Of a stretch of 64,000 bases of DNA, positions 11,676 to 53,230 are shown piece after piece (position 1 is the first letter of the stretch; every line of letters starts with the position of its first letter). The stretch comes from Methylogaea oryzae (lineage in GTDB: Bacteria; Pseudomonadota; Gammaproteobacteria; Methylococcales; Methylococcaceae), in contig NZ_AP019782.1 of NCBI RefSeq assembly GCF_019669985.1, forward strand, positions 1,294,501 to 1,358,500, written 5' to 3'. The notes under the pieces are model-generated. The model saw only the letters and a program-made list of their open reading frames with translations. It ran no database searches and had not been told where the DNA came from. Made by a program: the position numbers and the translations under genes.

Positions 11676-12503
11676 ATGCAACCTAAACGCACCTTGTTCC
11701 TGGTCTCCGACCACACCGGCATCACCGTGCAGACCATTGCCAAAACCCTGCTCAGCCAGTTCGAAGGCGTGGCTTTCGACAGGGTGCAACTGCCCTTCGT
11801 TGACACGCCGGAGAAGGTCCAGGCCGTGCGCGAGCGCATCGACACCGAAGCGGTGCGTTCGGAGGTGCGGCCCATCGTGCTCAGCAGCCTCACCGACAGC
11901 GTCCTGCGCGAGCGGCTCAAGCCTTGCCGGGGGCTGGTGCTGGACGTGTTCGAGGCGTTTATCGGCGCGTTGGAGCAGGAGTTCGCCAAGCCGGCGTCGA
12001 AAGCCGTGGGCCGCGCCCATGGCTTGGTCGACAAGGAAGCCGGCCGGCGGCGCATCCAGGCCTTGAAGTTCGCCTTGCAAACCGACGACGGCGTGAAATA
12101 CGACGACTATCCCAACGCCGACATCATCCTGCTGGGCGTGTCCCGCAGCGGCAAGACGCCGGCCTGTTTGTACCTCGCCATGCAGTTCGGCCTGCGCGCC
12201 GCCAACTACCCCCTCACCGAGGAAGACCTGGAGTGGGGCGAGCTGCCCAAGGCGTTGGCGTCCTACCGCGACAAGCTGTGCGGACTGCTGGTGGATTCCC
12301 GCCAGCTGGCGAAAATACGGGAGGAGCGCCAGCCGGGCAGCGGCTACGCCTCCCTGGCCCAGTGCCAAAAGGAACTGCGCGCCGCCCTGGACATATACCG
12401 CTCGGCGAACATCCCCTACCTGGACACCAGCAACATGTCGGTGGAGGAAATCGCCACCCGCGTGATGCGGCTGATGCAGGGCGGCTACAAGACCTCCGCT
12501 TGA
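11676..12503 (+). CDS. ppsR: PEP synthase regulatory kinase/phosphorylase (DUF299)
   Basis: A 275-residue protein of the bifunctional ADP-dependent kinase/Pi-dependent pyrophosphorylase family. It begins [20 protein letters not shown] and carries the P-loop [15 protein letters not shown] in the middle; [13 protein letters not shown] near the C-terminus is also typical. In E. coli this protein inactivates PEP synthase by ADP-dependent phosphorylation of a Thr next to the catalytic His and reactivates it by phosphorolysis. The divergent ppsA supports that assignment. The ATG at 11676 starts the conserved region; upstream codons lie in the palindromic spacer. Confidence 0.95.
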
Positions 12504-12608
12504 GCGGCTAGACTGCCACACTGGCAAAGCCAAGGCCGAGGCGCATCCCACCGAAAGGAATTATTGCAAGGGCTTTCGACAGAGCACTTTTCGAGTTTGA
12601 GTATTTGT

Positions 12609-18098: not shown

Positions 18099-19043
18099 TC
18101 AGCCGTCGATCCGCACGACGATTTTGCCGCTGGGGCGGCCGCTGCGGCTGCGTTCCATGGCTTTGCCCAGCTCCTCCAGGGGATAAATCCCGTCCAGCAC
18201 GGTGCGCAGGCGTTTTTGCCGGACCCAGTCGGCCAGCTGTTCCAGGTCGGCGCGGTTGGGCTTGAGGAAGGTGACGGCGGCGCGTTGGGACGAGTAAAGC
18301 GGCAGCGTCAATTTGTGCAGCAGCAGTCCGGGCAGCGGCAGCAGGGCGACGTATTTGCCCCGCGGCGTCAGCCAGCGCCGCCAGCGGCCGAAGCCCTGAT
18401 GATGGGTGGTGTCCAGGATCAGGTCGTAGCGTTGCGCCGCATCGGCCGGCGCGGCGGCGTAATCCAGGGCCGCGTCGGCGCCCAGTTCCCGCGCCAGCGC
18501 GTGTTTGGCCGGCCGGCACAGGGCGGTGACGTGGGCGCCCAACGCCTTGGCGATCTGCACCCCGTAGTGGCCGACGCCGCCGGCCGCGCCGCTGACCAGC
18601 ACCCGTTGGCCGGCAACCAGCCCGCCGTCGTCGCGCAAGGCCTGCAGCGCCGTCATGCCCGCCAGGGGCAGAGCCGCCGCTTCGGCAAAACCCAGTCCCT
18701 CCGGCATGGGCGCGGCGTAGGCCTGATCCACCGCCAGGTATTCGGCGGCGGCGCCCAGCTGGCGCAGCGGCAACATGCCGAACACCCGTTCGCCCGGCCG
18801 GAACGCGCCGACGCCTTCGCCGGCGGCGGCCACCTCTCCGGCGAAATCGAAGCAGGGGGTGGAAGGAAAATGCAGCGGCCTGATCCAGCGCAACATGCCG
18901 CCGTGCAGTTTCCAGTCGATGGGGTTGATGGAGGTGGCGGCTACCTTGACGGGAATTTCACCGGCGCCCGCCGCGGGTACCGGCAGCTCCGCCGCCCGGA
19001 TTTTGTCGGGGCCGCCGTAACCGGCGAATTGCATGGCTTTCAT
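18099..19043 (-). CDS. Zinc-independent alcohol dehydrogenase/quinone oxidoreductase-like (MDR family)
   Basis: A 314-residue medium-chain dehydrogenase/reductase. It starts MKAMQFAGYGGPDKIR, has the GroES-like N-terminal domain with SINPIDWKLHGG, and a Rossmann domain with SGAAGGVGHYGVQIAKALGA (nucleotide-binding AAGGVG). No structural or catalytic zinc Cys cluster is seen, consistent with NADPH-dependent quinone oxidoreductases. Substrate unknown. The ATG at 19043 matches family starts; 24 further codons upstream are not conserved-looking. It lies 41 bp downstream of the small membrane gene and may be cotranscribed with it. Confidence 0.88.
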   Translation of the reverse strand: MKAMQFAGYGGPDKIRAAELPVPAAGAGEIPVKVAATSINPIDWKLHGGMLRWIRPLHFPSTPCFDFAGEVAAAGEGVGAFRPGERVFGMLPLRQLGAAAEYLAVDQAYAAPMPEGLGFAEAAALPLAGMTALQALRDDGGLVAGQRVLVSGAAGGVGHYGVQIAKALGAHVTALCRPAKHALARELGADAALDYAAAPADAAQRYDLILDTTHHQGFGRWRRWLTPRGKYVALLPLPGLLLHKLTLPLYSSQRAAVTFLKPNRADLEQLADWVRQKRLRTVLDGIYPLEELGKAMERSRSGRPSGKIVVRIDG

Positions 19044-19083
19044 GGGAGATGCCCTCGTGGCGTGGTTCCTATGGCGGCGCATG

Positions 19084-19485
19084 TTAATGGGTTTTTCCCA
19101 CGTGCAAAAACACATTGGCGGCGAAGGCGACGATGCCGGCCACCAGGGGGAACTGCGCCGCCACCAGTACCGGTGCGGCTTCGTTGCGGCCCAGCAGCAT
19201 GGCGGCCAGGGCCGCCATCATCACCGGCATGGACACGTTGTGCAGCCAGAAATGGATGGCGGCCAAGCGGCTGCGGGCGGTTTGGGGGAAGACGCTGTAG
19301 ACCAGGCCGGCCAGGGCCAGCGTGGCCCAGCCCAGCAGGTTGAGATGGGTATGCACGGGGCGCAGCACGAAGCTTTCGCTGGCGCCCATGTACATGCCCA
19401 GGGCCAGGCCCAGCAGCAGGTAGATCACCGCGGCTTTCAGGCAGTTCGGGCCGACGGCCGAGGGGGAAACAGTGAATGCAGGCAT
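19084..19485 (-). CDS. Four-helix heme-copper-oxidase subunit I-like membrane protein
   Basis: A 133-residue protein with four hydrophobic helices. The segment PVHTHLNLLGWATLALAGLV resembles the haem-ligand region of cbb3 oxidase/NO reductase large subunits, and IHFWLHNVSMPVM carries further histidines. It is far too short to be a full oxidase subunit I (about 450 residues or more, 12 helices). Similar stand-alone proteins are commonly annotated as cytochrome-c-oxidase-like; their function is unknown. It lies downstream of the E1 alpha/beta pair with a 22-bp gap, suggesting a shared transcript, and upstream of the MDR gene. Confidence 0.75.
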   Translation of the reverse strand: MPAFTVSPSAVGPNCLKAAVIYLLLGLALGMYMGASESFVLRPVHTHLNLLGWATLALAGLVYSVFPQTARSRLAAIHFWLHNVSMPVMMAALAAMLLGRNEAAPVLVAAQFPLVAGIVAFAANVFLHVGKTH

Positions 19486-19507: not shown

Positions 19508-20473
19508 TTAGGCGATGGATTCGAACAGCTTCAGCGCGGCGGCGGCCACCGCGTCGGCGCTGGGCGCGCCGGCTTGTTCCAGCACGATATTGCCGGGGGT
19601 GGGCGCGTCGGGGCCGGCGAGTCGGATGACCGGCGCTTTGAGCGCTGCGAAGGCGTGTTCCGCGGCCAGCGCCGCCACTTCCGCGCCGACGCCGCACAGC
19701 CGGCCCGCTTCGTGCGCCACCACCAGCCGGCCGGTTTTGCGGACGGAGGCGAGTATGGCGGCTTCGTCCAGGGGCTTGAGGCTGCGCAGGTCGATCACTT
19801 CGGCGGCAATGCCGCGTTCGGCCAGGCGATCCGAGGCTTGCAGGCAGGCGGCGACGGTTTTGCCGTAGCCGATGAGGGTGACGTCGCCGCCGACGCGGCG
19901 GGTGGCGGCGCTGCCCAGGGGGACGAGGCAGTCCCCGTCGGGCACTTCGCCCGCTTGGTAGCCCAGGGACAGATCGGAGAAGAACAGCACCGGGTTGTCG
20001 TCGCGGATGGCCGCTTTCAGCAGGCCCTTGAAATCCGCCGGGTTGGAAGGCATCACCACCTTGAGTCCGGGGCTGTGCACGAACCAGGCCTCCAGGTTGT
20101 GGTTGTGCTGGGCGCCCACGCCCCAGCCGGCGCCGGTTTGGGTCATCACCACCAGGGGAAAGGCGAATTGTCCGCCGGACAAGTAACGCAGCTTGCCGGC
20201 GCTGTTGACGATCGCGTCCATGGCGTAGCAGAGGAAGGGGGCGAACAGCAGGTCCACCACCGGCCTGAGCCCCATGGCGGCCGCTCCCACGGCGGTGCCG
20301 GCGATGATGCCTTCCGCCAGGGGCGTGTTGCGTATCCGTTCCGGGCCGAATTCGGCCAGGAGATCGTGCCGTTTGGTGGCGACGCCTTCGCCGAACATCA
20401 GCACTTTGGCATCGCGGCGCATTTCTTCCGCCAGGGCTTGGGAAACGGCGTCGTTGACGGTGAGTTGTTGCAT
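19508..20473 (-). CDS. TPP-dependent dehydrogenase E1, beta subunit (pyruvate/acetoin type)
   Basis: A 321-residue protein of the E1-beta/transketolase C-terminal family. It begins MQQLTVNDAVSQALAEEM, and contains GEGVATKRHDLL, RIRNTPLAEGIIAGTAVGAA, and the C-terminal VIDLRSLKPLDEAAILASV with VVAHEAGR. E1-beta pairs with E1-alpha to decarboxylate a 2-oxoacid or cleave acetoin on TPP. The alpha gene is 14 bp upstream. No dihydrolipoyl acyltransferase (E2) or lipoamide dehydrogenase (E3) gene is adjacent; the next gene downstream is the oxidase-like membrane protein. Substrate cannot be assigned with confidence. Confidence 0.92.
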   Translation of the reverse strand: MQQLTVNDAVSQALAEEMRRDAKVLMFGEGVATKRHDLLAEFGPERIRNTPLAEGIIAGTAVGAAAMGLRPVVDLLFAPFLCYAMDAIVNSAGKLRYLSGGQFAFPLVVMTQTGAGWGVGAQHNHNLEAWFVHSPGLKVVMPSNPADFKGLLKAAIRDDNPVLFFSDLSLGYQAGEVPDGDCLVPLGSAATRRVGGDVTLIGYGKTVAACLQASDRLAERGIAAEVIDLRSLKPLDEAAILASVRKTGRLVVAHEAGRLCGVGAEVAALAAEHAFAALKAPVIRLAGPDAPTPGNIVLEQAGAPSADAVAAAALKLFESIA

Positions 20474-20487
20474 GGGTGCGTCTCCTT

Positions 20488-21450
20488 TCACGCGTACACG
20501 TCCGTAGCCAATTCCTCGGCGGCGGGGTAGGGCGAGGCCAGGGCGAAGGCCAAGCCGTTGTCGATATCGGCCGCCACGCGCTGGTGCAGGCGTTCCAGGC
20601 TTTCGGCGCTCAGGACGCCCTGCGCCAGCAGCCGCGCTTGCAAGGCGGCGATGGGATCGCGGCCGCGCCAACCCGCCAGCTCTTTCGCGTCCACGTAATG
20701 CTGGTCGTCCGGCTCGTAGTGGCCGCGCAGGCGGTAGGTTCGCGCTTCCAAGAAATAGGGCTGGCGGCTGCTTCTCACTTGGGCGGCGGCGGCGGCAGCA
20801 GCGGCGTATACCGCCTCCGCGTCGTTGCCGTCCACGCTGGCGCAGGGCATGGGATGGGCGGCGGCCCAGTCTCCGACGCTTTCCGCCGCCATGGCTTCGC
20901 GCCGGTGTACGAAGGCCTGCCATTGATTGTTTTCGCACACGTAGAGGATGGGCAGGCGCCACAGGGCGGCCAGGTTGAGGGATTCGTGGAACGCGCCTTC
21001 GCAGGCGGCGCCGTCGCCGAAGAAGCACACGGCGATGGCGGCGCTGCGCTCCATGGCCAGGGCTAACCCCACGCCGGTGGCGAGGGAAAGTTCGGCGCCG
21101 ACGATGGTGGAGGTGAGCACCACGCCCAGTTCCTTGGCGGAAATGTGCAGCGAGCCGCTTTTGCCTTTGCAATAGCCGGTGCTTTTGCCCATCACTTCGG
21201 CCAGCATGCGGCCGGTGTCGGCGCCCCGCGCCAATAAATGGCCGGCGCTGCGGTGGTTGGTGAGGATCAGGTCGTCCGCCGCCAGGGCTTGCACCACGCC
21301 CACGGCGACGGCCTCCTGGCCGACGGCGGTGCATGTGCCCGGCGCCTGGCCTTGCGCTTGCAGGGCGGCGGCTTTTTCCTCGTAGGCGCGAATCCTCAGC
21401 ATGGATTCGAGCATGGCGAGCAGCGTTGTATTGTCGGTGTTGGATTCCAT
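20488..21450 (-). CDS. TPP-dependent dehydrogenase E1, alpha subunit (pyruvate/acetoin type)
   Basis: A 320-residue E1-alpha. It has TAVGQEAVAVGVVQAL, the substrate-channel region GKSTGYCKGKSGSLHISAKE, and the TPP-binding motif GDGAACEGAFHESLNLAAL ending in ENNQ. The ATG at 21450 is preceded by AAGGAGT with six-base spacing, which decides this start over a more upstream Met in the same frame. It is the first gene of a probable operon alpha-beta-(oxidase-like)-(MDR oxidoreductase). The KGKSGSLH region is shared by pyruvate and acetoin E1s, so either is possible. Confidence 0.92.
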   Translation of the reverse strand: MESNTDNTTLLAMLESMLRIRAYEEKAAALQAQGQAPGTCTAVGQEAVAVGVVQALAADDLILTNHRSAGHLLARGADTGRMLAEVMGKSTGYCKGKSGSLHISAKELGVVLTSTIVGAELSLATGVGLALAMERSAAIAVCFFGDGAACEGAFHESLNLAALWRLPILYVCENNQWQAFVHRREAMAAESVGDWAAAHPMPCASVDGNDAEAVYAAAAAAAAQVRSSRQPYFLEARTYRLRGHYEPDDQHYVDAKELAGWRGRDPIAALQARLLAQGVLSAESLERLHQRVAADIDNGLAFALASPYPAAEELATDVYA

Positions 21451-21591
21451 CCGGTACTCCTTGTCGCGAGCAGGATTGCTCATGCCGGCAGCCGGCCGGC
21501 GGTTAAGGAGCGTCACTTTACGCCGTCTTGCACGGCAAAAGACCCGGAGGGCGGCCGTTTAGGCGTTTTTTAAGATGGCTGGAGCGAAGTT

Positions 21592-42365: not shown

Positions 42366-42374
42366 TGGTATAGT
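42366..42374 (+). promoter_or_regulatory. Extended -10 promoter for the glycosyltransferase-led run
   Basis: TGGTATAGT matches TGn-TATAGT and sits 60 bp before the chosen start codon at 42434. No clear -35 is seen. It is nearly the same nonamer as that upstream of gyrA. Confidence 0.5.
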
Positions 42375-42433
42375 TGGCGCGTCGCCGGCAAACCAAACCG
42401 GTATTCCCATACCCATCGATTTGGAGGCGCGTG

Positions 42434-44218
42434 GTGGCAAGTGTCGCGGGAGGATGTACGGCGGAATTCTCCGATGCGTATTTTCTGGATTACGGCGATG
42501 CTTACGGCGTCGCCATGGAAGGCGGGGAAATCGTCGACGAAGCCGGGATTCGCCGTCCGCGTTATTGTTATTACGACGGGGCTTTAGGCGACGCCGCGTC
42601 GCCGTATTTGATCGGCGTTCCTTCCGACGACATCGTCACCACCTTTTGCAGCAATCGCCTGCCGGTTCCCGGTGTGATCGCCTTCCGGCGCGACGGCGTC
42701 TTGCAGTTCGAAAACATGCCGCAGGACGTGCTGGACGAAATCGTCGAGCATCGGCAACAGTATTTCTCCCGTCCGAGTAACGCCATTCATCTGGATACCT
42801 ATTTCCTGGATCCGTTGGAGGCGCTTAATACCGCCAAGCAACACAATCGCATCTATAACGGCCATCCGACCATCGACAGTCCGCAGCTGTGTTTTTACGG
42901 CGGAGATGCCATCGCCGCGGAGCTGAGCAATCTTATTTGGGTGCCGTACGACCGATTTGTCGATTTCTTTACCATGTCCCCCCTGAAAATGCCGGCCGTC
43001 GTAAAGTGCCGGGAAGGCGCCGGCGAGGCGGAGCAAGCGGCAGCCAACGAGGAGTTCCAACAACTGTTGCGGGCGGTGGAAGCCAACAGCACCAATGTGT
43101 GCACTTATCTGGGGGGGCTGGCCAGAGCGCAGCGGCCGGACTTTAGCGAGCCGGTTTTGCGTGTATTTGTAGTGACTTCACGCTATACCACGGTGATGCA
43201 GTATTGTGCCCGTGGAGTCGCCAAAGCGTTCGAGCGCCGTGGCTGCCGGGTGATGTTTGTCATGGAGCAGGACGAGAGGGAGCGGTTGTGTTTTGCCGAC
43301 CTATTGTCCAAATATGTGGAATTCAATCCCCATGTGTTTTTCGAAATAAACCGCTACGAGCCCCGTTTTCTTAACGACCATGTGGCGCATATCGTTTGGT
43401 GGCAAGACCTGCTGGTGCGCAAGAATATGAAGACCGATTCCCTGTCCGTCAGGGAAAGGGAGTTTCATTATTCGATTTCCACGCATTTGGACGAAGAACT
43501 GCATTCCTGTGGCGCGAGCGCAGTGCGTAGGCTCAATTTTTGTATCGACGAGGAAGTCTTCAATCCCGGCCATAATCCGGCGCGCAGCCGCAAAGTGGTT
43601 TTCGTCGGCGCCAATTACCCGTCTTTCGTGGACTTTTCCAGTGCGGCACAGTGTACCGCCGTGGCGCTGCTGACGGATTTGCTGGTGGCGGGGAAAGCTT
43701 TCGGTCCCGAGGTATTGCGCGCCGTGGCCGAGCAATCCGGCGTCGACCCGCAGCATTTAGCCTGGCGTTTGCTGCCTTACGCCATCAGAAGCCTGACGGT
43801 GCGCTGGCTGTGCGAATGCGCGACGATTCCCGTGGAGATTTACGGCCGCCACTGGGAGTCCGACCCGGTTGTCGCCAGGTTTTTCAAGGGCGAGGCGCCC
43901 CACGGCGTGGCGGTGGCGGACATTTACCGTTCGGCGCAATATGCCTTCGCCTGCCATGCCTTCGACATCAATTCGCAGCGCTTGGCCGAAGCTGCCGCCT
44001 GTGGTTGCACGCCGATAGTTTTCGATTGCCGCGAGCTGGCCGAGCCGCCCTATTGGGAAGAGGCTTGCCTCTATTTCAAAACCCAGGCGGAGTTGCAGGA
44101 CATTATCGACAACGACCGCCGCGCGCCGCACAGTCCCCATGCTATCGCCGCCGGATTTACCTATGACCGTGCCGTGGAGAGGTTTCTCGCCGATATGGGG
44201 CCGGTGGTCGGGTTATAA
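42434..44218 (+). CDS. Glycosyltransferase-like protein (CgeB/GT1-type C-terminus)
   Basis: A 594-residue protein. The N-terminal ~230 residues match nothing I recognise. From about residue 240 it resembles CgeB-like glycosyltransferases: LRVFVVTSRYTTVMQYCARG, HIVWWQDLL, KVVFVGANYPS, and the donor-binding segment VADIYRSAQYAFACHAF followed by RLAEAAACGCTPIVFDCREL. It probably transfers a sugar from a nucleotide donor. The GTG at 42434 is preferred because GGAGG lies six bases upstream; a TTG further up would start inside the -10 element. Base composition is a little more AT-rich than in gyrA. First gene of the rightward half of the radical SAM locus. Confidence 0.7.
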   Translation: MASVAGGCTAEFSDAYFLDYGDAYGVAMEGGEIVDEAGIRRPRYCYYDGALGDAASPYLIGVPSDDIVTTFCSNRLPVPGVIAFRRDGVLQFENMPQDVLDEIVEHRQQYFSRPSNAIHLDTYFLDPLEALNTAKQHNRIYNGHPTIDSPQLCFYGGDAIAAELSNLIWVPYDRFVDFFTMSPLKMPAVVKCREGAGEAEQAAANEEFQQLLRAVEANSTNVCTYLGGLARAQRPDFSEPVLRVFVVTSRYTTVMQYCARGVAKAFERRGCRVMFVMEQDERERLCFADLLSKYVEFNPHVFFEINRYEPRFLNDHVAHIVWWQDLLVRKNMKTDSLSVREREFHYSISTHLDEELHSCGASAVRRLNFCIDEEVFNPGHNPARSRKVVFVGANYPSFVDFSSAAQCTAVALLTDLLVAGKAFGPEVLRAVAEQSGVDPQHLAWRLLPYAIRSLTVRWLCECATIPVEIYGRHWESDPVVARFFKGEAPHGVAVADIYRSAQYAFACHAFDINSQRLAEAAACGCTPIVFDCRELAEPPYWEEACLYFKTQAELQDIIDNDRRAPHSPHAIAAGFTYDRAVERFLADMGPVVGL

Positions 44219-44277: not shown

Positions 44278-44613
44278 ATGATTAATCTTAAGGACTCCCG
44301 TACGCAAACTCCGGCGCCGGGCGCCGCCTGGCGCCGGCTGACGGACGCCGAGCGGATGGCCAGGGTGGAGCAAGCGCTGCATTCGGGCCCCGGCGCCTTT
44401 AACCGCGCGGTTGCCGTCGCGACGGCGGAGGAAAACGGTGAAGTGATCGTCGGCCTGTTGCAGCCTTTGTCCGCCGGCGAGCGCGGCACGCTGCTGCTGG
44501 ATCTGGAGGCCTTTTTGAAGGAAACCGTCGAGCCCAGCCTCGCCGTTTGGCTGGAACCTTTGGGCGACCGCAGTTCCTTGCGCAATTTGCGCGGCATGGG
44601 GGGCAAGCCATGA
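44278..44613 (+). CDS. Small conserved-looking protein of unknown function
   Basis: A 111-residue soluble protein (MINLKDSRTQTPAPGAAW...). It has no signal peptide, membrane helix or Cys residues. The C-terminal half, LAVWLEPLGDRSSLRNLRG, has the look of a conserved motif, but I cannot name the family. Its stop overlaps the ATG of the radical SAM gene (ATGA), so the two are translationally coupled. That raises the possibility of a substrate, carrier or chaperone for the enzyme. The start is uncertain: ATG 44278 or GTG 44242. Confidence 0.65.
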   Translation: MINLKDSRTQTPAPGAAWRRLTDAERMARVEQALHSGPGAFNRAVAVATAEENGEVIVGLLQPLSAGERGTLLLDLEAFLKETVEPSLAVWLEPLGDRSSLRNLRGMGGKP

Positions 44614-45749
44614 CCGCCGCCGTCGCCACCCGCGAAGGCGGATTGATCCTGGATTCCCACAAGCTGTCGCACCATTACGACCGGGTTGCGGCCTGGGAGG
44701 CGGGGGAGCGCATCGCGCCGGTGAGCGTGGACATGGCGCTGACCCGGGCATGCGGCGCCATGTGCTCGTTCTGCTACGCCATGATGCAGGAGTCGCAGGT
44801 GCGCAGCCCGGTCACCACTAGCCACGCGCTCAATCTGCTGGATGATTTTGCCGCCATGGGGGTGCGCAGCGTGTCGCTGGTGTCCGACGGCGAAAGCACT
44901 TTGTCGAAAACCTATGTGCCTTTCATCCGGCACGCGGCGGAGCTGGGCGTCGACGTGGGCAACGCCACCAATGCCTGGGAGTGGGGGCCGGAAAAAATCG
45001 AGCAGGTGCTGCCGCACCTGACCTGGGTGCGCTTTACCGTCGGCGCCGGCCGGCCGGAGAGTTACGCCCGCATCATGTACAAGGGGCCGGAACACACCGC
45101 CGTGTTCGAGCGCGCCATCGAGCACATCCGCTACGCCGTCGATTTGAAACGCCGCAACAAGCTCAAGGTGACGCTGGGCATCCAGATGGTGTTGATGCCG
45201 GAGTTCGGCGAGGAAATTCTGCCGTTCGCCCAGCTCGGCGTCGATTTGGGGGTGGACTATGCGGTCATCAAGCACTGCTCGGACGACGAGCAGCACTCCC
45301 TCGGCATCGACTACGGCAAATACGAGGCCTTGTACGACGTGTTGCGTCAGGCCGAGCGGCTGAGCACGGAGCAGACCAAGGTCGTCGTCAAGTGGAGCAA
45401 GATCCAGGACGGCGACAAGCCTTCCTACCAGCGCTTCTACGGTCCGCCGTTTCTGCTGCAAATCAGCGGCAGCGGGCTGGTGGCGCCGTCCGGCATGTTT
45501 TTCAACGCGCGCTACTCCAAGCTGCACATCGGCAATTTCACCGAGGAGCGCTTTATGGACATCTGGAAGTCCGAGCGTTACTGGCGGGCGATGAATTACC
45601 TCGCTTCGCCGGCCTTCGACGCCCAGACCATGATGGGCACGCTGCCGATCCAGCATTACGTCAGCGTGGCGCTGGACAACCACGTCAAAGGCATCGAGCG
45701 CATCCGCCCGGCCGCGGGCGAACCGCCGCTGCACGTCAATTTTCTGTGA
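44610..45749 (+). CDS. Radical SAM enzyme with cysteine-less SPASM-like C-terminus
   Basis: A 379-residue protein. The radical SAM 4Fe-4S motif is CGAMCSFC (CX3CX2C). The N-terminus ILDSHKLSHHYDRVAAW parallels that of the 47868-48971 protein (AIDSHKLMYHPQRIAQL), and both end in xHxNF(I/L), so they are homologues. In the C-terminal region GLVAPSGMFFNARYSKLHIGNF and FMDIWKSERYW have the shape of a SPASM domain, but none of the auxiliary-cluster Cys residues is present. It probably does a SAM-dependent radical step in the locus product pathway. It starts inside the upstream small gene's stop and ends 7 bp from the convergent methyltransferase stop. Confidence 0.88.
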   Translation: MTAAVATREGGLILDSHKLSHHYDRVAAWEAGERIAPVSVDMALTRACGAMCSFCYAMMQESQVRSPVTTSHALNLLDDFAAMGVRSVSLVSDGESTLSKTYVPFIRHAAELGVDVGNATNAWEWGPEKIEQVLPHLTWVRFTVGAGRPESYARIMYKGPEHTAVFERAIEHIRYAVDLKRRNKLKVTLGIQMVLMPEFGEEILPFAQLGVDLGVDYAVIKHCSDDEQHSLGIDYGKYEALYDVLRQAERLSTEQTKVVVKWSKIQDGDKPSYQRFYGPPFLLQISGSGLVAPSGMFFNARYSKLHIGNFTEERFMDIWKSERYWRAMNYLASPAFDAQTMMGTLPIQHYVSVALDNHVKGIERIRPAAGEPPLHVNFL

Positions 45750-45756
45750 GGCGGCC

Positions 45757-46512
45757 TTAGGCCTTTTCGCCGACGATGAGGATTTCGTTGGTGGGGACGA
45801 GGATGTCCTCGTCGATGTGGATGGCGATTTTTTCCTTGATGTGGGCCGGCACCATGCCCCGGTCCAGCACCCGGTCCAGGTAAAACTTCGGGTTCTGGAT
45901 CATCGTGTATTTGGAAATCTCCAGCACCTTGAAGCCGGTTTTCTCCAGCAGTTCGCGGACGGATTTTTCGCTCCACCAGGTCAGGTGCACCGGATAGCGG
46001 TAGCGGTACGGGATGCCCGTTTCCGTGCCCACCGTGGTCATCACCAGCTTGCCGCCGCCGGCGACGAGGCGCGCCAGGTTGCCGACGACGCCCATGGGGT
46101 CGGGTAGGTGCTCCAGCACGCCCCACAGGGTGACGAAATCGTATTTGTCCTTGGCGTCGTAATCCAGGGCGTCGTGGGGATAGTTGTAGCCCGCCCACCG
46201 GCACGGCATGCCTTCCTGCACGAACAGGTTTTCGCCGCAGCCGAAATCCAGCAGCTTATGGTCTTGGCTCAAGCCGTAGCGCTGCAAATAATCGATATTC
46301 TTGCGGCAGTTCTTTTTCACCGTGTCGCGAATCATCTGCCGGTCGTATTCCGTATAGTATTCGTAGTCGCTGTACAGTTTGTCCAATTCCGCCGCGCTGG
46401 GCATGGGATCGGCGAATTCCAGCGCGCAATGCCGGCATTTATGGATGGTGGCGCCGTCGGCGATGAATATGGGGAAACTTTCGTTGCTGCAAACAACGCA
46501 ATGAACGGCCAT
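45757..46512 (-). CDS. SAM-dependent methyltransferase with N-terminal zinc-ribbon-like motif
   Basis: A 251-residue protein. Two CX2C pairs in the first 30 residues (CVVC and CRHC) suggest a metal-binding ribbon, as in many sugar or polyketide methyltransferases. The Rossmann part has LLDFGCGENLFVQEG (motif I, slightly off consensus), DFVTLWGVLEHLPDP and LARLVAGGGKLVMTT. The group is Methyltransf_23-like. ATG 46512 is set by the ribbon; the frame runs open further upstream only as a shadow of the next gene. It is the last gene of the leftward run. Confidence 0.87.
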   Translation of the reverse strand: MAVHCVVCSNESFPIFIADGATIHKCRHCALEFADPMPSAAELDKLYSDYEYYTEYDRQMIRDTVKKNCRKNIDYLQRYGLSQDHKLLDFGCGENLFVQEGMPCRWAGYNYPHDALDYDAKDKYDFVTLWGVLEHLPDPMGVVGNLARLVAGGGKLVMTTVGTETGIPYRYRYPVHLTWWSEKSVRELLEKTGFKVLEISKYTMIQNPKFYLDRVLDRGMVPAHIKEKIAIHIDEDILVPTNEILIVGEKA

Positions 46513-46550
46513 TGATAGTGCTCCGGCAAATGGTTCTTGTGGTTGAGCGG

Positions 46551-47840
46551 CTAGCTGACGAAAGTCGGCATTTCCCTGCGCTTGAAGTGTTCCACGTAAT
46601 GGTCGATGACCGATTTTAAATGGTCTTCCTCCTCCACGCTGCGCACTTCCGGAATAATGAAATCCCGCACCGGGTTTTCGCAGAATTCCCCCCAATAATC
46701 CCGCTCGAACCGGCCGCTGCGCAGCAGTTCGTCGTAGTAAGGGGTTTCGGCCAAGGGCGATAACAGGTTGAAATAGGGCAGGCGGATGCCGAGGTTTTTG
46801 ATGCGCTCGGGTAGGGTTTTCCGGTATTCGTCGGTTTCTCCCGGCGCGCCGATAATGAAATAGCCCAGCACGTCGATGCCGTAGCGGTTGCACAGTTCGC
46901 AGAATTGCTCGATGTGCTTCAACCGGCAGGCTTTTTTGAAGTATTCCAATACGGTGTCGTCCAAGCTTTCGATGCCCACGTGCAGGCGCTTGCAGCCGGC
47001 GGCGGCCAGGTCGGCGATGACCGCCTCGCGCACTTCCACCGTGCCGCGTGCGCTCCAGTCGATTTGTATGCCGTTTTGCACGACGGCCTGGCTCAGGTCG
47101 GATACCCTGGCTCGGTTGATATTGAACGCATCGTCCAGGATGTGGATGGAGGTGGCGCCCAAATCGATGAGGGCGTTGAATTCCTCGATGCACTTGCCCA
47201 CGGATTTGAAATTGAATTGTTTTTGCTGCACGTCGCAATAGATGCAGGCATAAGGGCAGCCGCGGGACGAGAACATGGGCAAGCGCAAGGAGCCGACATT
47301 GAACAGCAAATCGCTGTTTTGCTCGATACGGTAATCTTCGATATTCAGCAGGTGGCGGGCCGGCAGGGGCAGGGCGTCCATGTTTACCTGGCCGCCGAAG
47401 AATACGCCGGCGGGGCAGCCGTCTTCCAGCCACTGGGGGAAAATGATTTCCGCGTCGTCGACGAATACCGCATGGGCGCCTTGCCGCAAAATGGCGGCGT
47501 GGTTGCGGGTGGCGTGGGGGCCGCCCACCACTTTGATGGGGGCCGACGCCCGTTTCAATATCTCCACCATGGTCCAGGCGCGGTAGGTAACCACGGACAG
47601 CCCCAGTATGTCCGGCGCATAGTTTTCGATGGCGTGCAGGGTTTCGTCCAGGCTCAATCCCAGGCTGGCGGCATCCAGTATTTTTACTTCGTAGTGTTCG
47701 GGTATGCAGGCGGCGATGCTGAGCACGCCGAGGGGCATGTATTTGACGGCGCTGTTTTTATAAAACTTGGCCGTGACGCGATCCTGCACTTCGCCTTCAT
47801 AGGGCATGACCGCCAAGAGGATTTTTTTCGGTTTCAGCAT
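46551..47840 (-). CDS. B12-binding-type radical SAM protein
   Basis: A 429-residue class B-like radical SAM enzyme. The N-terminal ~150 residues form a cobalamin-binding-type Rossmann domain (YMPLGVLSIAACIPEHYEVKI, DILGLSVVTYRAW, VVGGPHATRN) but without the DxHxxG base-off His motif. The radical SAM core has SSRGCPYACIYCD (CX3CX2C), ILDDAFNINRARV and LHVGIESLDDTVLEY. Members methylate or rearrange unactivated carbons; the substrate is unknown. It is 38 bp upstream of the methyltransferase and 27 bp downstream of the SPASM gene in the leftward operon. Confidence 0.9.
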   Translation of the reverse strand: MLKPKKILLAVMPYEGEVQDRVTAKFYKNSAVKYMPLGVLSIAACIPEHYEVKILDAASLGLSLDETLHAIENYAPDILGLSVVTYRAWTMVEILKRASAPIKVVGGPHATRNHAAILRQGAHAVFVDDAEIIFPQWLEDGCPAGVFFGGQVNMDALPLPARHLLNIEDYRIEQNSDLLFNVGSLRLPMFSSRGCPYACIYCDVQQKQFNFKSVGKCIEEFNALIDLGATSIHILDDAFNINRARVSDLSQAVVQNGIQIDWSARGTVEVREAVIADLAAAGCKRLHVGIESLDDTVLEYFKKACRLKHIEQFCELCNRYGIDVLGYFIIGAPGETDEYRKTLPERIKNLGIRLPYFNLLSPLAETPYYDELLRSGRFERDYWGEFCENPVRDFIIPEVRSVEEEDHLKSVIDHYVEHFKRREMPTFVS

Positions 47841-47867: not shown

Positions 47868-48971
47868 TCAGATGAAATTGATGTGGGGCACGTCGCGCCG
47901 AATCAGCCGGTCCAGGTAGCGGTTGGCCTCGTCCATGCGGCAGTTCAGGCGGCACTCGTGGATGTCCAGTTCGTGGCGCACGTAGCGGAAGTTGTCGCGG
48001 CGCCGCTCGCCTTCCCAGATGTCCTGGAACGAGGCGTGGTTGAGGTTGCCGTAGTCGAAGCGCGGATTGAGCAGGTAGGCGCTGCAACCGTACACGGCGC
48101 CGGTCGCCATGACGTAGGCCCAGAGGAACGGCGTGGCGTTGCAGCTGCGGTAGCGGTTGGCCTCGCCTGCGTCGTGCTTCTTCATGGTGTTGTCGCGGAA
48201 TATCACCTGGAAGCTGTTTGTGTTCAGCGCCCGCAGGCTGTCGCCCAGGCGCAGGGTGGCCTGGTAGTCGATGCCTTCGTAAGCCTTGGTGAGGCTGAAA
48301 CGGTGCTGGGAGTGGGGCTTGACCACCAGATAGTCGAGCCCGATGTCGTCGCGGCACAGGCGCGCCAGGGGTTCCACCTCGTGGGCGTTTTCCGGCAGCA
48401 GCAGGATCTGTGCGCCGAGGGTGCAGGCGTAGCCGTGCCGGCGGCGGGCGTCGGCCAGGGTTTTCAGGTTGTCCAGCACACGCTGGAAATCGTCGGCCTT
48501 GGTGCGGTGGATGCGGGCGTAGCTGTCCGCCGTGCCGGCGTTGACCGAGGCCTTGATCCACGACATATGCGGCAGGGCTTGCTCGACGAAGGCTGGCGTC
48601 AACACCGAGGCGTTGGTGGTCATGGCCGTGTCGATGCCGGCCTCGGCGGCGGCGGCCACCATGCGGTGGATGTCCTTGTGCAGCATGGGTTCGCCTTCGC
48701 CGGCGAACATGACGCTGCGTATGCCCAGCCGTCCCATGTCGGCCAGGGCGCGTTCGGCGGTTTCCAGCGGCAGGCGGGTCGGCTGGTAGCCGATATAGTC
48801 CATCGCGCAGAAAGTGCAGCGATGGTTGCAGGCGCCCACCGGCGACATTTCCACGTACAGGGGGTAGACGGCCTTGGCCTTGTTCCAGTCGTCGCCGGCA
48901 TCCAGCAGTTGCGCGATGCGCTGGGGATGGTACATGAGCTTGTGGCTGTCGATGGCGTAGCGGTCGGACAT
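47868..48971 (-). CDS. Radical SAM/SPASM enzyme
   Basis: A 367-residue protein. The cluster motif is CNHRCTFC (CX3CX2C) after YVEMSPVGA. GEGEPMLHKDIHRMV follows the usual GGEP position, and the C-terminus has SPASM-type cysteines: YRSCNATPF, VYGCSAYLL and ECRLNCRMD, likely binding an auxiliary 4Fe-4S cluster. It is homologous to the rightward radical SAM protein at 44610-45749, which lacks those cysteines. SPASM enzymes modify peptides or small molecules, including sugar-linked substrates. It starts 11 bp after the E1-beta stop, so it is in the same transcript. Confidence 0.92.
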   Translation of the reverse strand: MSDRYAIDSHKLMYHPQRIAQLLDAGDDWNKAKAVYPLYVEMSPVGACNHRCTFCAMDYIGYQPTRLPLETAERALADMGRLGIRSVMFAGEGEPMLHKDIHRMVAAAAEAGIDTAMTTNASVLTPAFVEQALPHMSWIKASVNAGTADSYARIHRTKADDFQRVLDNLKTLADARRRHGYACTLGAQILLLPENAHEVEPLARLCRDDIGLDYLVVKPHSQHRFSLTKAYEGIDYQATLRLGDSLRALNTNSFQVIFRDNTMKKHDAGEANRYRSCNATPFLWAYVMATGAVYGCSAYLLNPRFDYGNLNHASFQDIWEGERRRDNFRYVRHELDIHECRLNCRMDEANRYLDRLIRRDVPHINFI

Positions 48972-48982
48972 GGGGGGCGCTC

Positions 48983-50056
48983 TTAGAAGGGGCCGCGAAA
49001 GTCGCGCTGCGGCACATCGTGCGGGGTGGTTCGCGCCAGCCGGCCGGCCAGTTCCGCGTCGGGAATGGCGGCGTCCAAGTGCGCGGCGACGGCGCGGGCG
49101 ATAGACAGGGCGTCGGGATAATGGCCCTCGGCCAGGTGGGGCGAAGTCGGCACGGGATAATCCGGCAGGGCGATGCGCAGGGGCGGACGCCGGAGGGCGG
49201 AAAACGCCGTTTCGGCCACAGCGGCAATCACCTCGCCGGCGATGCCGCCGGTTTTCCAGGCGGTGTCGGCGACGATCAGGCTGCCGGTGCGGCGCACCGA
49301 CGCCACGACGGTGGCGAGGTCCAGCGGCCGCACGCAGCGGGCGTCGATGACTTCCAGCTCGATGCCGTAATCCGCCAGGGCTTCGGCGGCCAGGCGCGCC
49401 TCGACGGTCATGTAGGAGAAGGCCAGCAGCGTGGCGTGCCGGCCGGGGTGGCAGATCAGCGCCTGGTCGAGGGGAACCACATAAGGCTCTTCCGGCACGA
49501 TGTCGCGGAGGGTTTGCAGCCAGCGGTGCTCGATGAAAATGACCGGGTTGTCGTCGCGGATGGCCGCCAGCAACATGCCTTTGCTGTCGTAGCCGCTGCT
49601 GGGCATGACCACCTTGAGGCCGGGAATGTGGGCGAACAGCGCTTGCAGGCTTTGGGCGTGCTGCGGCCCCTGGCCCCAGCCGCGGCCGACGATGACGCGG
49701 ATGACCAGCGGGATATTGACTTGGCCGGCGAACATGTAACGCCACTTGGCGGCATTGTTGACGATCTGGTCCATGGCCAGCAGGGCGAAGTCGATGCGCT
49801 GGTGCACCATGACCGGGCGCAGGCCGGACATGGCGGCGCCGATGCAGATGCCGGTCATGCCGTTTTCGGCGATGGGGCTGTCGAACACCCGCTGCTTGCC
49901 GAAGCGTTCCTGCAGGCCGGCGGTGGTGCCGAACACGCCTTTGGGGTCGGGCACGCCTTCGCCGACCAGGATGACGCGTTCGTCCTCGGCCATGGCCTGT
50001 TCCAGCGCTTCGCGGATGGCTTCGATTTGGGTGAGTTGGCGGCCGGCTTCAGGCAT
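48983..50056 (-). CDS. TPP-dependent E1 beta subunit of the radical SAM locus
   Basis: A 357-residue E1-beta. It shows LTQIEAIREALEQAMAEDE, GEGVPDPKGVFGTTAGL, RVFDSPIAENGMTGICIGA, GRGWGQGPQHAQSLQA and VIDARCVRPLDLATVVASV. It has a C-terminal extension of some 30 residues beyond the usual end. With the alpha subunit it should form a heterotetramer that decarboxylates a 2-oxo acid or performs a ketol transfer. It overlaps the alpha gene by 8 bp. No E2/E3 is adjacent. It is clearly distinct in sequence from the E1-beta at 19508-20473. Confidence 0.92.
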   Translation of the reverse strand: MPEAGRQLTQIEAIREALEQAMAEDERVILVGEGVPDPKGVFGTTAGLQERFGKQRVFDSPIAENGMTGICIGAAMSGLRPVMVHQRIDFALLAMDQIVNNAAKWRYMFAGQVNIPLVIRVIVGRGWGQGPQHAQSLQALFAHIPGLKVVMPSSGYDSKGMLLAAIRDDNPVIFIEHRWLQTLRDIVPEEPYVVPLDQALICHPGRHATLLAFSYMTVEARLAAEALADYGIELEVIDARCVRPLDLATVVASVRRTGSLIVADTAWKTGGIAGEVIAAVAETAFSALRRPPLRIALPDYPVPTSPHLAEGHYPDALSIARAVAAHLDAAIPDAELAGRLARTTPHDVPQRDFRGPF

Positions 50057-50990
50057 ACAGATACCCCGGCAAGTCGGCAGGGCGCGGCGGCGGGCTGGCC
50101 AGCGCCGCCGCGAAGGCGGATTCGATTTCGGCGGCGACCTCGCTTTCCAATCGGTCCAGGTCCGTGCCGCCGGCGCTAAGGCGTGGAGCCAGGCGCCGGA
50201 GCGGGCAGTGGGCTTCCCAATCCTGCCGTTCCCCGGCCGGGCGATAACCCAGGTGGTCGTCCAGTTCGGGGCCGCAGTGCTCGCGCCAGCGGTAGGTGGC
50301 GCACTCCAGGAAATAGGGCTTGCTGCCGCTGCGCAATTGGCCGACGGCGGTGCGGGCCGCCTGGTGGACCGCCTCCACGTCGTTGCCGTCGGCGGTGAGG
50401 GTGATGCAGCCGTGGGCGGCGGCGACGCCGTGGATGGGCCGTGGCGGCTGGCGGTCGGGGAGGCGGGTGTAGCAGGCGTACAGGTTGTTTTCGCAAACGA
50501 ACAGCACCGGCAGGCTGTGCAGCACGGCGAAGTTGACGGATTCGTGCACCACGCCTTCTTCGAAGGTGCCGTCGCCGAAAAACACCGCGACCACCTTGTC
50601 CTCGCCGCGCAGCCGCGCCGCCCAGGCCGCCCCCACCGCCAGGGGGAGGGTGGCGCCGACGATGGGCACGGCGCCGAGAAAGCCGGCTCGCAGGTCGATC
50701 ATGTGCATGGAGCCGCCCACGCCGTGGCAGCAGCCGGCGTCGAGGCCGTAGATTTCCGCCAGCATGGCGGTGAGGTCGCCGCCCTTGGCCAGGTAATGGG
50801 CGTGGGCGCGGTGGCCGCTGAAGACGCCGTCGCGTTGTTCCAGCGCGGCGCACACGCCCACGGCGACGGCTTCCTGGCCGATGGACAGGTGCACCGGGCA
50901 GCGCATTTCCTGGGCCGGGTAGCGGTCGGCGATGGCTTCTTCGATGCGGCGTATGCGCAGCATTTGGCGGTAAAGATCGAATGGGTTCAT
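50049..50990 (-). CDS. TPP-dependent E1 alpha subunit of the radical SAM locus
   Basis: A 313-residue E1-alpha. Motifs: PVHLSIGQEAVAVGVCAAL, GHRAHAHYLAKGGDL, LDAGCCHGVGGSMHMID, and TPP-binding FFGDGTFEEGVVHESVNFA ending CENN. The GVGGSMH version and neighbouring glycosyltransferases match the group of E1 proteins found in glycan or secondary-metabolite clusters rather than the pyruvate complex. Its ATG starts one base after the GT9 stop, and its stop lies inside the E1-beta gene, so translation is coupled on both sides. The 2-oxo acid substrate is unknown. Confidence 0.92.
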   Translation of the reverse strand: MNPFDLYRQMLRIRRIEEAIADRYPAQEMRCPVHLSIGQEAVAVGVCAALEQRDGVFSGHRAHAHYLAKGGDLTAMLAEIYGLDAGCCHGVGGSMHMIDLRAGFLGAVPIVGATLPLAVGAAWAARLRGEDKVVAVFFGDGTFEEGVVHESVNFAVLHSLPVLFVCENNLYACYTRLPDRQPPRPIHGVAAAHGCITLTADGNDVEAVHQAARTAVGQLRSGSKPYFLECATYRWREHCGPELDDHLGYRPAGERQDWEAHCPLRRLAPRLSAGGTDLDRLESEVAAEIESAFAAALASPPPRPADLPGYLYA

Positions 50991-50991
50991 G

Positions 50992-51957
50992 TCAGGCCTG
51001 GCGGGACAATTGGGCGCGGACGGCAGCGCCGACCATCTGCACCGGAATGTGTTGCATGCAGGGTGTGGCTTGGCTGCACGAGGATTCGACGCAGGGAATG
51101 CAGTCCCAGGGCAGCGGCGGCGTGATGCGGGTCAGGTTGGGGCCGTCGATTTCGCCGGCGACGGTGGGGCCGAACAGGGCGATCACCGGTTTGCCCAGGC
51201 CGAGGGCGATGTGCAGGCCCAGGGAGTCGTTGGTGACCAGCAGGCGGCAACCGGCGATCCACTCGATGTAATCCTCGATGTCGTTGGCGCCCTGTTGCCA
51301 GTCGACGGAATAGCTGGTGGCCAGCTCGTCGTGCAATGCCTGCCAATAGGGCTCCGGCCAGCGCTTGAGGGGAAACTTGTGGCCGATCAGATGATTCAGG
51401 CCGACATCGTGGCTGATGGCCGAGCGCGGCTGGTAGCCCAGCACATAGGATTGCCCGGCGTAGCGGTGGCCCAGCATTTCGTAAAGAATTTCCGACCAGG
51501 ATTTGGCCTTGCGGCGCTTGGCCTCGGCATCGGTGGTGAAGCTTAGGGCTTCGTCGGCGTGGTCGTAGCACACCGCCGTGTGGGTCTGCGCGTCCAGCCG
51601 GAAACCGTAGCGCCGCCAGGCCGGAATGCGGTCGGATACGGCGCAGATGCCGGGTTCCCTCTCGAAATTGACGACGATGTCGAACCACTCCGACAGCAGC
51701 AGATGGGGCGTGAAGGGGTTGATGACCAGCAGCCGGTCGATGAAGGGATTGCCCTTGAGCAGGGCGACGCCTTTCTGGTCCACCACCCAGGTGACGTGGT
51801 AGTCCTGCGGCGGAAACAGGTGCAGGATCACCGTGGTGCGCAGGATGTCGCCCAGGCTGACCATGCCGCTGTTGTCCGGGTCCAGCGTTTCGCCGTAACC
51901 CGGTTTGATGATGAGGACGCGCTTGCGGGCGGCGGCCGCTGGCAGGGCGTTATTCAT
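50992..51957 (-). CDS. GT9 (ADP-heptosyltransferase-like) glycosyltransferase
   Basis: A 321-residue protein of the glycosyltransferase 9 family. The N-terminus RKRVLIIKPGYGETL is the first strand of a GT-B fold. The C-terminal domain has LLVTNDSLGLHIALGLGKPV and ALFGPT, followed by a Cys-rich end (IPCVESSCSQATPC) typical of heptosyltransferase relatives. It likely adds a sugar to an LPS-like or other acceptor. ATG 51957 lies 8 bp inside the upstream radical SAM gene. Upstream codons in frame are not conserved-looking. Confidence 0.87.
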   Translation of the reverse strand: MNNALPAAAARKRVLIIKPGYGETLDPDNSGMVSLGDILRTTVILHLFPPQDYHVTWVVDQKGVALLKGNPFIDRLLVINPFTPHLLLSEWFDIVVNFEREPGICAVSDRIPAWRRYGFRLDAQTHTAVCYDHADEALSFTTDAEAKRRKAKSWSEILYEMLGHRYAGQSYVLGYQPRSAISHDVGLNHLIGHKFPLKRWPEPYWQALHDELATSYSVDWQQGANDIEDYIEWIAGCRLLVTNDSLGLHIALGLGKPVIALFGPTVAGEIDGPNLTRITPPLPWDCIPCVESSCSQATPCMQHIPVQMVGAAVRAQLSRQA

Positions 51958-53230
51958 GGGCGTTGCCTTCCTTTGCCGTTGCGCTGAAGAACCGCCGTGT
52001 TTGTTCCAGGTTATCGATTTGGCCAAGCAGGTCGGCGGGCATGTGGATGTTCCTGATTTGGACCGAGGTGTGGGGAATGCCCCGGTCGTAGTAGCTCTGG
52101 AAGCGGTCGTTTTTTATCTTGGTATCGCAGCCTATGCAACGGCCGTATTGCTTGCAAGGGCGGAAAACCTCCAGCTCGGCCATGGCGAAGTCGGGATCGA
52201 GTAGGTGCCCCACCGGCGCCATGGCGCGGCCGGCGAAAATCCGTGCGCCGTGCCGGGCGTAGCGAAAGCCTTCCTGTTCCAGCGCGGCGAATTCCCGCAG
52301 CGGGCCGCCGTGGCTCCAGCCTTCGTACAGGTAATAGTGGCAGCCCCAGACGAAGCCCATCGGGTCGATCAGCAGTTCCGTGGTGCGGCATTCGCATTGC
52401 AAGGTCGTGGGATAAATGCCGCGGGCGATGAGATCGGTGGAGAACGGATACAGGTAACGCCCGTAGAGCTTGCCGTCGTGGACGCCGAGAAATTCCTTGG
52501 TTTCGAACGGCACGCGGCCTTCGTAGGCCGCTTTCATTTCCGCCGTGACGCGGTTCTGCGGGTGCTCGACCATGTAGATGCCGACATCGCTGTCGGCCTT
52601 GCGCGGGGAGATGCGAAAGCCGTAATCCCGCAGCGCTTCGCAGCGCGCCACCAGCGCTTCGAAGCCGCGTCCGTTCCAGGCTCGGTTCATTTCGTCGGCA
52701 TGATAGCTGACGCGGATGGACGGGTAGGGCGCATCCCGTTGCAGTTTGGCCTGTTGGCCGTTGAGGTAGCGGGCGAATACCTCCGGCTTGAGGGCGAAGT
52801 TGGTGAGCAGGTCGAAGTAATGGGGCACTTGGGACAGTATCAGGCCCAGCCCTTGGCCGCCCCAGTACAGCATGGGCTCCCCTCCTTGCAGGGTGATGGG
52901 CAGGCCGGGGCGGAAAGGGAGCCTTCGCAGGGCGGCGACCCATTGCTCGGGCGTCAGTCCTTTGCGGGCGGATTTGCCGTCCATCGGGAACAGGGCGTTG
53001 CGCCGGCCGAGCTGCTGCGGATCGTTGATGCAATAGCTGCAATTCAGGTTGCATTCGAGCGTGAGGAACAGCCCGATGTAGTTCAGGCTGTCCGGCAGGG
53101 GGATGGGGGATAACGCCACTGGGCTCGCTGTGGGTTGGCCGGTGACCGAGGGTGTAGGGGCACGCAGCGGTGCCGTGCTGGGTTGGGCCGCCATGGTGTC
53201 GGTGGTGGGGCACCTGGAGGAAATAGTCAT
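51950..53230 (-). CDS. Radical SAM protein heading the leftward operon
   Basis: A 426-residue protein. After a Pro/Thr/Ser-rich leader of about 45 residues comes FLTLECNLNCSYCINDP with the CX3CX2C motif, then ITLQGGEPMLYWGG. Cysteines later in the chain (QCECRTTEL, GCHYYLYEG and the cluster in FRPCKQYGRCIGCDTK) suggest one or two auxiliary Fe-S clusters. It does not resemble the DSHK-type radical SAM pair closely. Substrate unknown. The start may be further inside, since the leader is low-complexity. It is divergent from recA across 207 bp and is first in the seven-gene leftward run. Confidence 0.88.
   Translation of the reverse strand: MTISSRCPTTDTMAAQPSTAPLRAPTPSVTGQPTASPVALSPIPLPDSLNYIGLFLTLECNLNCSYCINDPQQLGRRNALFPMDGKSARKGLTPEQWVAALRRLPFRPGLPITLQGGEPMLYWGGQGLGLILSQVPHYFDLLTNFALKPEVFARYLNGQQAKLQRDAPYPSIRVSYHADEMNRAWNGRGFEALVARCEALRDYGFRISPRKADSDVGIYMVEHPQNRVTAEMKAAYEGRVPFETKEFLGVHDGKLYGRYLYPFSTDLIARGIYPTTLQCECRTTELLIDPMGFVWGCHYYLYEGWSHGGPLREFAALEQEGFRYARHGARIFAGRAMAPVGHLLDPDFAMAELEVFRPCKQYGRCIGCDTKIKNDRFQSYYDRGIPHTSVQIRNIHMPADLLGQIDNLEQTRRFFSATAKEGNAHE

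Follow-up and report, generated by a model that had tools for sequence, protein, structure and literature searches.

Pairs of E1 alpha and beta subunits that work without an E2 protein have been described in the biosynthesis of antibiotic sugars, namely AviB1/AviB2 (avilamycin), Pau11/Pau12, also named Plm8/Plm9 (paulomycin), and KbDH-alpha/beta (kibdelomycin). According to the available text of the corresponding papers, these enzymes are reported or proposed to use pyruvate as the source of an acetyl group, which is attached at C3 or C4 of a keto-sugar; reduction, methylation or transamination of the branch can follow (PMC4425429, PMC4753412, PMC4802897, PMC12247030); the branch of kibdelomycin is transaminated (PMC12247030). 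Pau11 and Pau12 consist of 325 aa and 345 aa, respectively (PMC4425429). In the available text of a review, enzymes of the alpha-keto acid dehydrogenase 2 type are assigned chiefly to antibiotics, LPS being the domain of YerE-like enzymes, and the former type is stated to have no solved structure (PMC12247030).

A further pair of E1 alpha- and beta-type genes was analyzed in the window, i.e., the whole stretch of 64,000 nucleotides under study (C1:1294501-1358500 of a single-contig genome of 4,018,824 bases). The computational analysis revealed complete ThDP enzyme subunits, a conserved operon, a split from the E2-linked E1 proteins, and sugar-gene neighborhoods in the relatives. The pair is probably an E2-independent ThDP carboligase that provides a surface glycan with a C-branched sugar, similarly to AviB1/AviB2 and Pau11/Pau12. 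The antibiotic enzymes likewise consist of E1 alpha and beta subunits of similar lengths acting in sugar biosynthesis. However, as far as the available descriptions, to which the comparison is confined, allow one to judge, they belong to actinobacterial antibiotic clusters, whereas the window pair is found in a Gram-negative bacterium together with radical SAM and GT9-type genes. Moreover, the relatives of the window pair are located in surface-glycan type clusters, unlike the antibiotic-making pairs. The pair resembles a known enzyme kind, the sugar-branching E1 pair, but its setting is new in that it is found in clusters of the surface-glycan type, with radical SAM enzymes as partners.

The E1 genes belong to a run of seven close-set minus-strand genes extending from position 53230 down to 45757 of the window (Table 1), in the order radical SAM, GT9-type glycosyltransferase, E1 alpha, E1 beta, radical SAM/SPASM, B12-binding radical SAM, methyltransferase. 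Two plus-strand genes are convergent with this run, and the glycosyltransferase-like one is possibly part of the same locus. The E1 genes overlap by 8 bp. The preliminary description had given gaps of 1 bp and 11 bp to the adjoining glycosyltransferase and radical SAM genes, and the coordinates agree with this: the GT9 stop at 50992 leaves 1 bp before the E1 alpha gene, and 11 bp separate the E1 beta gene from the SPASM gene if the latter starts at its first ATG (48971). The B12-binding radical SAM gene follows 27 bp past the SPASM gene in the same direction. The GT9 reading frame is open from 52026, with the ATG at 51957 as its likely start. The locus is flanked by gyrA on one side and by recA, recX and alaS on the other. 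A promoter and terminator scan of the operon found sites no more frequent than in shuffled sequences.

Table 1. Genes of the E1 locus (window positions) and the basis of their assignment
Feature	Position	Strand	Basis
E1 alpha-type ThDP enzyme subunit, 313 aa	50049..50990	-	PF00676, GDG...NN, TIGR03182 below cut-off
E1 beta-type ThDP enzyme subunit, 357 aa, C-terminal tail ending GPF	48983..50056	-	PF02779/PF02780, AF2 model
GT9-type (heptosyltransferase-like) glycosyltransferase	50992..51957	-	PF01075; 3tov GT9 and 1psw WaaF
Radical SAM protein, first cassette gene	51950..53230	-	PF04055; order kept in G006, G455, L035
Radical SAM/SPASM protein, last gene of conserved core	47868..48971	-	PF04055, PF13186; DesII profile/fold match
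B12-binding radical SAM protein	46551..47840	-	PF02310 and PF04055
Class I methyltransferase, closes minus-strand run	45757..46515	-	PF13489, 63.5 bits
Second radical SAM protein, SPASM-gene relative, convergent with operon	44547..45749	+	PF04055
Glycosyltransferase-like protein (Glyco_trans_1_2)	42374..44218	+	PF13524, 39 bits

Pfam analysis bore out the earlier recognition of an E1 alpha/beta pair with ThDP motifs in both subunits. The alpha subunit matches E1_dh with 208.8 bits (cut-off 22) and contains GDG at residue 139 and NN at 168; the beta subunit matches PF02779 with 128.6 bits and PF02780 with 100.3 bits and contains ENG at 64 and QHAQ at 132. Solved E1 subunits of PDH and BCKDH align with both proteins over most of their length, i.e., the E1 alpha/beta fold and ThDP motifs of 2-oxoacid dehydrogenases are present in the pair. 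The curated cut-offs for PDH E1 were missed (281.9 vs. 393.85 for TIGR03182 with the alpha subunit; 303 vs. 321 for NF006667 of NCBIfam). The AF2 model of the beta subunit has a pLDDT of 90.4, and its nearest solved folds are PDH E1 beta subunits. In this single-chain model, the tail is poorly ordered (residues 350-357, pLDDT <50); one may speculate that it packs on the partner subunit or blocks E2 binding. The E1 proteins of AcoAB, PdhAB and BkdAB have the fold, the ThDP motifs and the alpha/beta split in common with the window pair, but the window locus lacks E2 and E3, belongs to a separate clade, and has another loop in the alpha subunit and another tail in the beta subunit. A split transketolase was also considered and rejected, since the alpha chain belongs to PF00676 and not to Transketolase_N (PF00456).

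As for the chemistry of the pair (donor, acceptor, product and final glycan), we infer the following steps. The two subunits would bind ThDP and remove CO2 from a 2-oxo acid, pyruvate being the most likely one. The resulting two-carbon acyl anion would be passed to the carbonyl of a keto-sugar rather than to lipoamide, and an acetyl C-branched sugar would result, the branch of which might later be reduced or aminated. The GT9-type enzyme, the radical SAM enzymes and the methyltransferase, presumably co-transcribed with the pair, would make, modify or transfer the branched sugar to a flagellin or LPS glycan. YerE and its relatives (yersiniose) share the proposed outcome, in which a keto-sugar of a surface glycan gains a two-carbon branch (PMC12247030, available text); YerE is, however, a single-chain ThDP-dependent flavoprotein of the decarboxylase superfamily, whereas the pair analyzed here consists of two E1-type subunits. 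Nucleotide-sugar dehydratase, epimerase and aminotransferase genes are all absent from the window operon, so the supply of the keto-sugar is not seen there; this point, like the absence of an inverted HldE-like fusion from the genome, speaks against the carboligase reading. A heptose-derived acceptor is plausible because the GT9 family includes heptosyltransferases and the SIS and HldE-like genes of the relatives (see below) recall heptose-nucleotide synthesis. The PF01075 match of the window GT9-type protein has 39.4 bits over 47 residues.

It is unlikely, although conceivable, that the pair is a pure decarboxylase or acyl donor, supplying an aldehyde or acyl group to a neighboring enzyme and forming no C-C bond itself. 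E1 enzymes are capable of decarboxylation without E2, and the several radical SAM enzymes encoded nearby have no assigned reaction; both points speak for this option. On the other hand, neither an acyltransferase nor a CoA ligase nor an enzyme using aldehydes was found in the operon, and the published E2-less E1 pairs of sugar clusters are carboligases. The preliminary description had offered non-oxidative decarboxylation or acyl/ketol transfer onto a sugar or precursor; the sugar setting is well supported by the neighborhoods of the relatives, and carboligation is favored over decarboxylation alone, since the most similar published E2-less pairs, according to the available text, attach the acetyl of pyruvate to keto-sugars (PMC4425429, PMC4802897, PMC12247030).

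Returning to the carboligase, the SPASM protein could be relevant to its acceptor. DesII, BlsE and BtrN belong to the best matches of this protein by profile and fold: the profile search places DesII first (E 3e-13), SkfB and BlsE next and BtrN lower, and Foldseek also places DesII on top (TMq about 0.65, identity ~20%). The margin of DesII over the RiPP maturases SuiB and SkfB is small in both searches, and a DesII-like keto-sugar step is hypothetical because these maturases rank so closely behind. The product of DesII is a 3-keto nucleotide sugar (PMC11434129, available text), a compound that, by analogy, would suit the E1 pair as acceptor. One can imagine a complete relay in which the DesII-like SPASM enzyme makes a keto-sugar, possibly heptose-derived, the E1 pair adds two carbons, and the GT9-type enzyme moves the C-branched higher sugar to flagellin or LPS; such an undescribed pathway in unrelated bacteria, within a wider E1 clade reaching archaea, is doubtful as a whole.

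As for the other radical SAM proteins, the first one of the run matches PF04055 with 33.1 bits and none of the NCBIfam families; its gene has no match among the plasmids searched, and one solved relative was found at E 0.053. The B12-binding protein has the HpnJ, PhpK and AprD4 families among its matches, all far below cut-off. An N-terminal 'DSHKL' and a C-terminal 'HxNF' are common to the SPASM protein and the convergent second radical SAM protein, and to most related proteins near E1 genes of other phyla; judging by these marks, the two window proteins apparently represent two subtypes of one family.

The order rSAM-GT9-E1a-E1b-SPASM is shared with the genomes G006 (70-76% identity) and G455 (57-60%). 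A Rhodocyclaceae locus (L035) has the same order with a protein of the convergent radical SAM type in the last slot; the window representative of this type is 51% identical to the L035 protein adjoining E1 beta, and a PF13524 protein is present in L035 too. In a deltaproteobacterium (L078), all five genes occur in a different order together with a B12 radical SAM gene. No energy-metabolism gene was found in the conserved operon. At E 1e-15, the first radical SAM gene was detected in 2/369 genomes of the class, the window's own included and G006 not among the matches in this draw, which indicates a rare and patchy occurrence of the cassette. In G006, it is surrounded by a flagellar gene run, with TPR-GT41, FliK-like and FliD genes upstream and FliF, FliG, FliH and FliI genes downstream; this position behind TPR-GT41 recalls flagellin glycosylation islands, whereas the window cassette is located between gyrA and recA. 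The flagellin genes of the window genome are found at 2.58 Mb, about 1.2 Mb from the cassette, and GT41-type genes are situated beside two of them. The literature search, which covered a limited collection of papers, yielded none recognized as describing this cassette, and no such E1 pair was found in the available text of papers on Coxiella virenose and Aeromonas flagella.

A genome scan yielded 80 E1 loci from many phyla, including Cyanobacteriota, Chlamydiota, Verrucomicrobiota, Omnitrophota and the archaeal Woesearchaeota; a same-genus relative (G001) also carries an E1 relative. Neighboring genes were called by a script and clustered, and Pfam was used to name the representatives of ten clusters. 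The first gene caller misplaced GC-rich genes and was replaced; some calls in GC-rich loci may still be wrong. The named clusters comprise a CTP_transf-PfkB fusion, which is HldE-like with its two domains in inverted order, a SIS isomerase, NAD epimerases/SDRs, a DegT aminotransferase, a methyltransferase, a UDP-glucose dehydrogenase type, a bacterial sugar transferase and GT2; another cluster was identified as E2. Among the 49 loci with at least 3.5 kb on each side that had been selected for no E2 match, two SDR clusters were found in 17/49 (cluster 5) and 22/49 (cluster 3), DegT in 21/49, the fusion in 18/49 and the SIS isomerase in 11/49. Each of eight sugar-type families occurred in 0/12 of the E2-linked loci. 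The absence of E2 from the 49 loci is by construction, since they were chosen so; the statements based on trees are unaffected. The window pair itself adjoins a GT9-type gene, and sugar genes lie near its relatives; in this respect it conforms to the sugar-branching type, an E1 alpha/beta pair of a sugar or glycan cluster that lacks E2 and E3.

A plasmid of Azospirillum oryzae has the row epimerase, SDR, PfkB kinase, SIS, SDR, E1a, E1b, DegT, DegT, hypothetical, radical SAM. In many relatives, DegT aminotransferases directly follow the E1 beta gene, which, by analogy, would fit a transaminated branch. On plasmid pDCAR1 of Solidesulfovibrio carbinolicus (L191), a relative of the SPASM protein (48%) follows PfkB kinase, hypothetical and SIS genes and shares the stretch with the pseudaminic acid genes pseB/pseF and further radical SAM genes. 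A replacement of the cluster 5 SDR by the SPASM gene was considered and set aside, with mutual exclusion unsupported (SDR present in 1/7 SPASM loci vs. 16/42 others, Fisher p 0.40).

The neighborhoods also bear on transketolase-like ketol transfer, by which the pair would lengthen a sugar phosphate that in the relatives would then pass through SIS isomerase and kinase/nucleotidyltransferase steps. SIS and HldE-like enzymes act on sugar phosphates in heptose pathways, and the presence of their genes among the non-E2 loci agrees with this option, as does the structural relationship of split transketolase with the beta subunit. Nevertheless, ketol transfer is quite unlikely: the alpha subunit is of the PF00676 type, the beta subunit is closer to PDH E1 beta (TMt about 0.96) than to split transketolase (about 0.86), and the inverted fusion is absent from the window genome, where HldE has the usual domain order.

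No E2 or E3 gene was detected among the window genes scanned around the pair, in accordance with the earlier statement that none lies nearby. Only two E2 genes were found in the whole genome, at C1:674570 and C1:2022560, both outside the window. One belongs to an AceE-AceF-Lpd operon (AceE, 899 aa); the other has the full E2 domain set and is probably SucB. The E1_dh-type genes of the genome include two window pairs, a 949-aa protein, which is probably 2-oxoglutarate dehydrogenase, and weaker matches in frames of 626, 709 and 704 aa, probably DXS and transketolases. A housekeeping PDH role for the pair was rejected, since the genome already has the AceE-AceF-Lpd operon.

A quick-method tree of the alpha subunit was constructed from 93 rows with SH-aLRT support, after removal of duplicates and of fused or distant rows (L010-L018, L025-L027, L066). 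The window protein fell within a 70-row set of moderate support (91) that contained 0/12 of the E2-linked loci, many loci of the set being cut short so that an E2 gene beyond their ends is possible. Its closest group included L035 and G006 (99), joined next by L042 (98). In the joint tree of both subunits (92 rows, with 13 named rows and those missing one subunit dropped), all E2-linked rows (17/17) formed part of one 29-row set (support 100), and the window pair belonged to a 33-row set (support 96). Forcing its four-row group, picked after the tree was seen, onto the E2 side cost 90 log-likelihood units (AU p 0.019). The two sides also differ in sequence marks: M[RK]C[PT] near residue 29 of the alpha subunit is present in 33/33 window-side rows, EHCG at 237 in 31/33, and a GPF/GPY-like end of the beta subunit in 29/33 (the other four rows are truncated at the end of a locus or contig), each against 0/29 on the E2 side. 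The window pair clusters with E1 pairs of nucleotide-sugar clusters that encode HldE-like kinase/nucleotidyltransferases, SIS isomerases, epimerases and aminotransferases.

The preliminary description had named a position within the clade of PDH complexes as a refuting result, and the trees did not show it; its view that the pair does not form part of a 2-oxoacid dehydrogenase complex is very probably correct, given the position outside the E2-linked clade, the AU test and the AceE-AceF-Lpd operon elsewhere. That the pair is a spare E1 served in trans by AceF/Lpd or by the second E2, for which the two E2 proteins and Lpd of the genome and the complete E1 fold and ThDP motifs can be cited, is very unlikely, since AceF adjoins an unrelated homodimer-type AceE, the phylogeny and clade marks set the pair apart, and its conserved operon has no energy-metabolism gene.

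If the carboligase reading is true, many pairs labeled 'pyruvate dehydrogenase E1' would be sugar-branching enzymes, the EHCG loop and GPF tail would point to many new candidate ketone-accepting carboligases, and pairs bearing this signature would predict undescribed branched surface sugars.

A search for AviB1/Pau11-type pairs among 295 Streptomyces genomes gave 20 fetched loci, 11 of them with an E2 match nearby, and none was recognized as such a pair. Among phage records, 21 showed partial, weaker matches, none spanning 80% of the query. Plasmid pSGRIFU1 of Streptomyces griseofuscus (L193) carries an E1 pair of the non-E2 side (11920-13966) among butyrolactone-regulator, P450 and PKS/NRPS-type genes; no obvious sugar gene is located near it, as is the case for some other members of this side, and such settings speak against the carboligase reading. 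In several alpha subunits of the non-E2 clade (e.g., L040, L055, L041, L051, L118), GDG reads GDA, GDS, GEG or GEA, which makes this motif alone a poor test of activity there. The window contains a second E1 alpha/beta pair (19508-21516, minus strand) near a zinc-type alcohol dehydrogenase gene (18099-19115); the genes read around this pair include no E2. Its place in the joint tree is within the 29-row E2-side set, in an 8-row E2-free set inside the otherwise E2-linked side.
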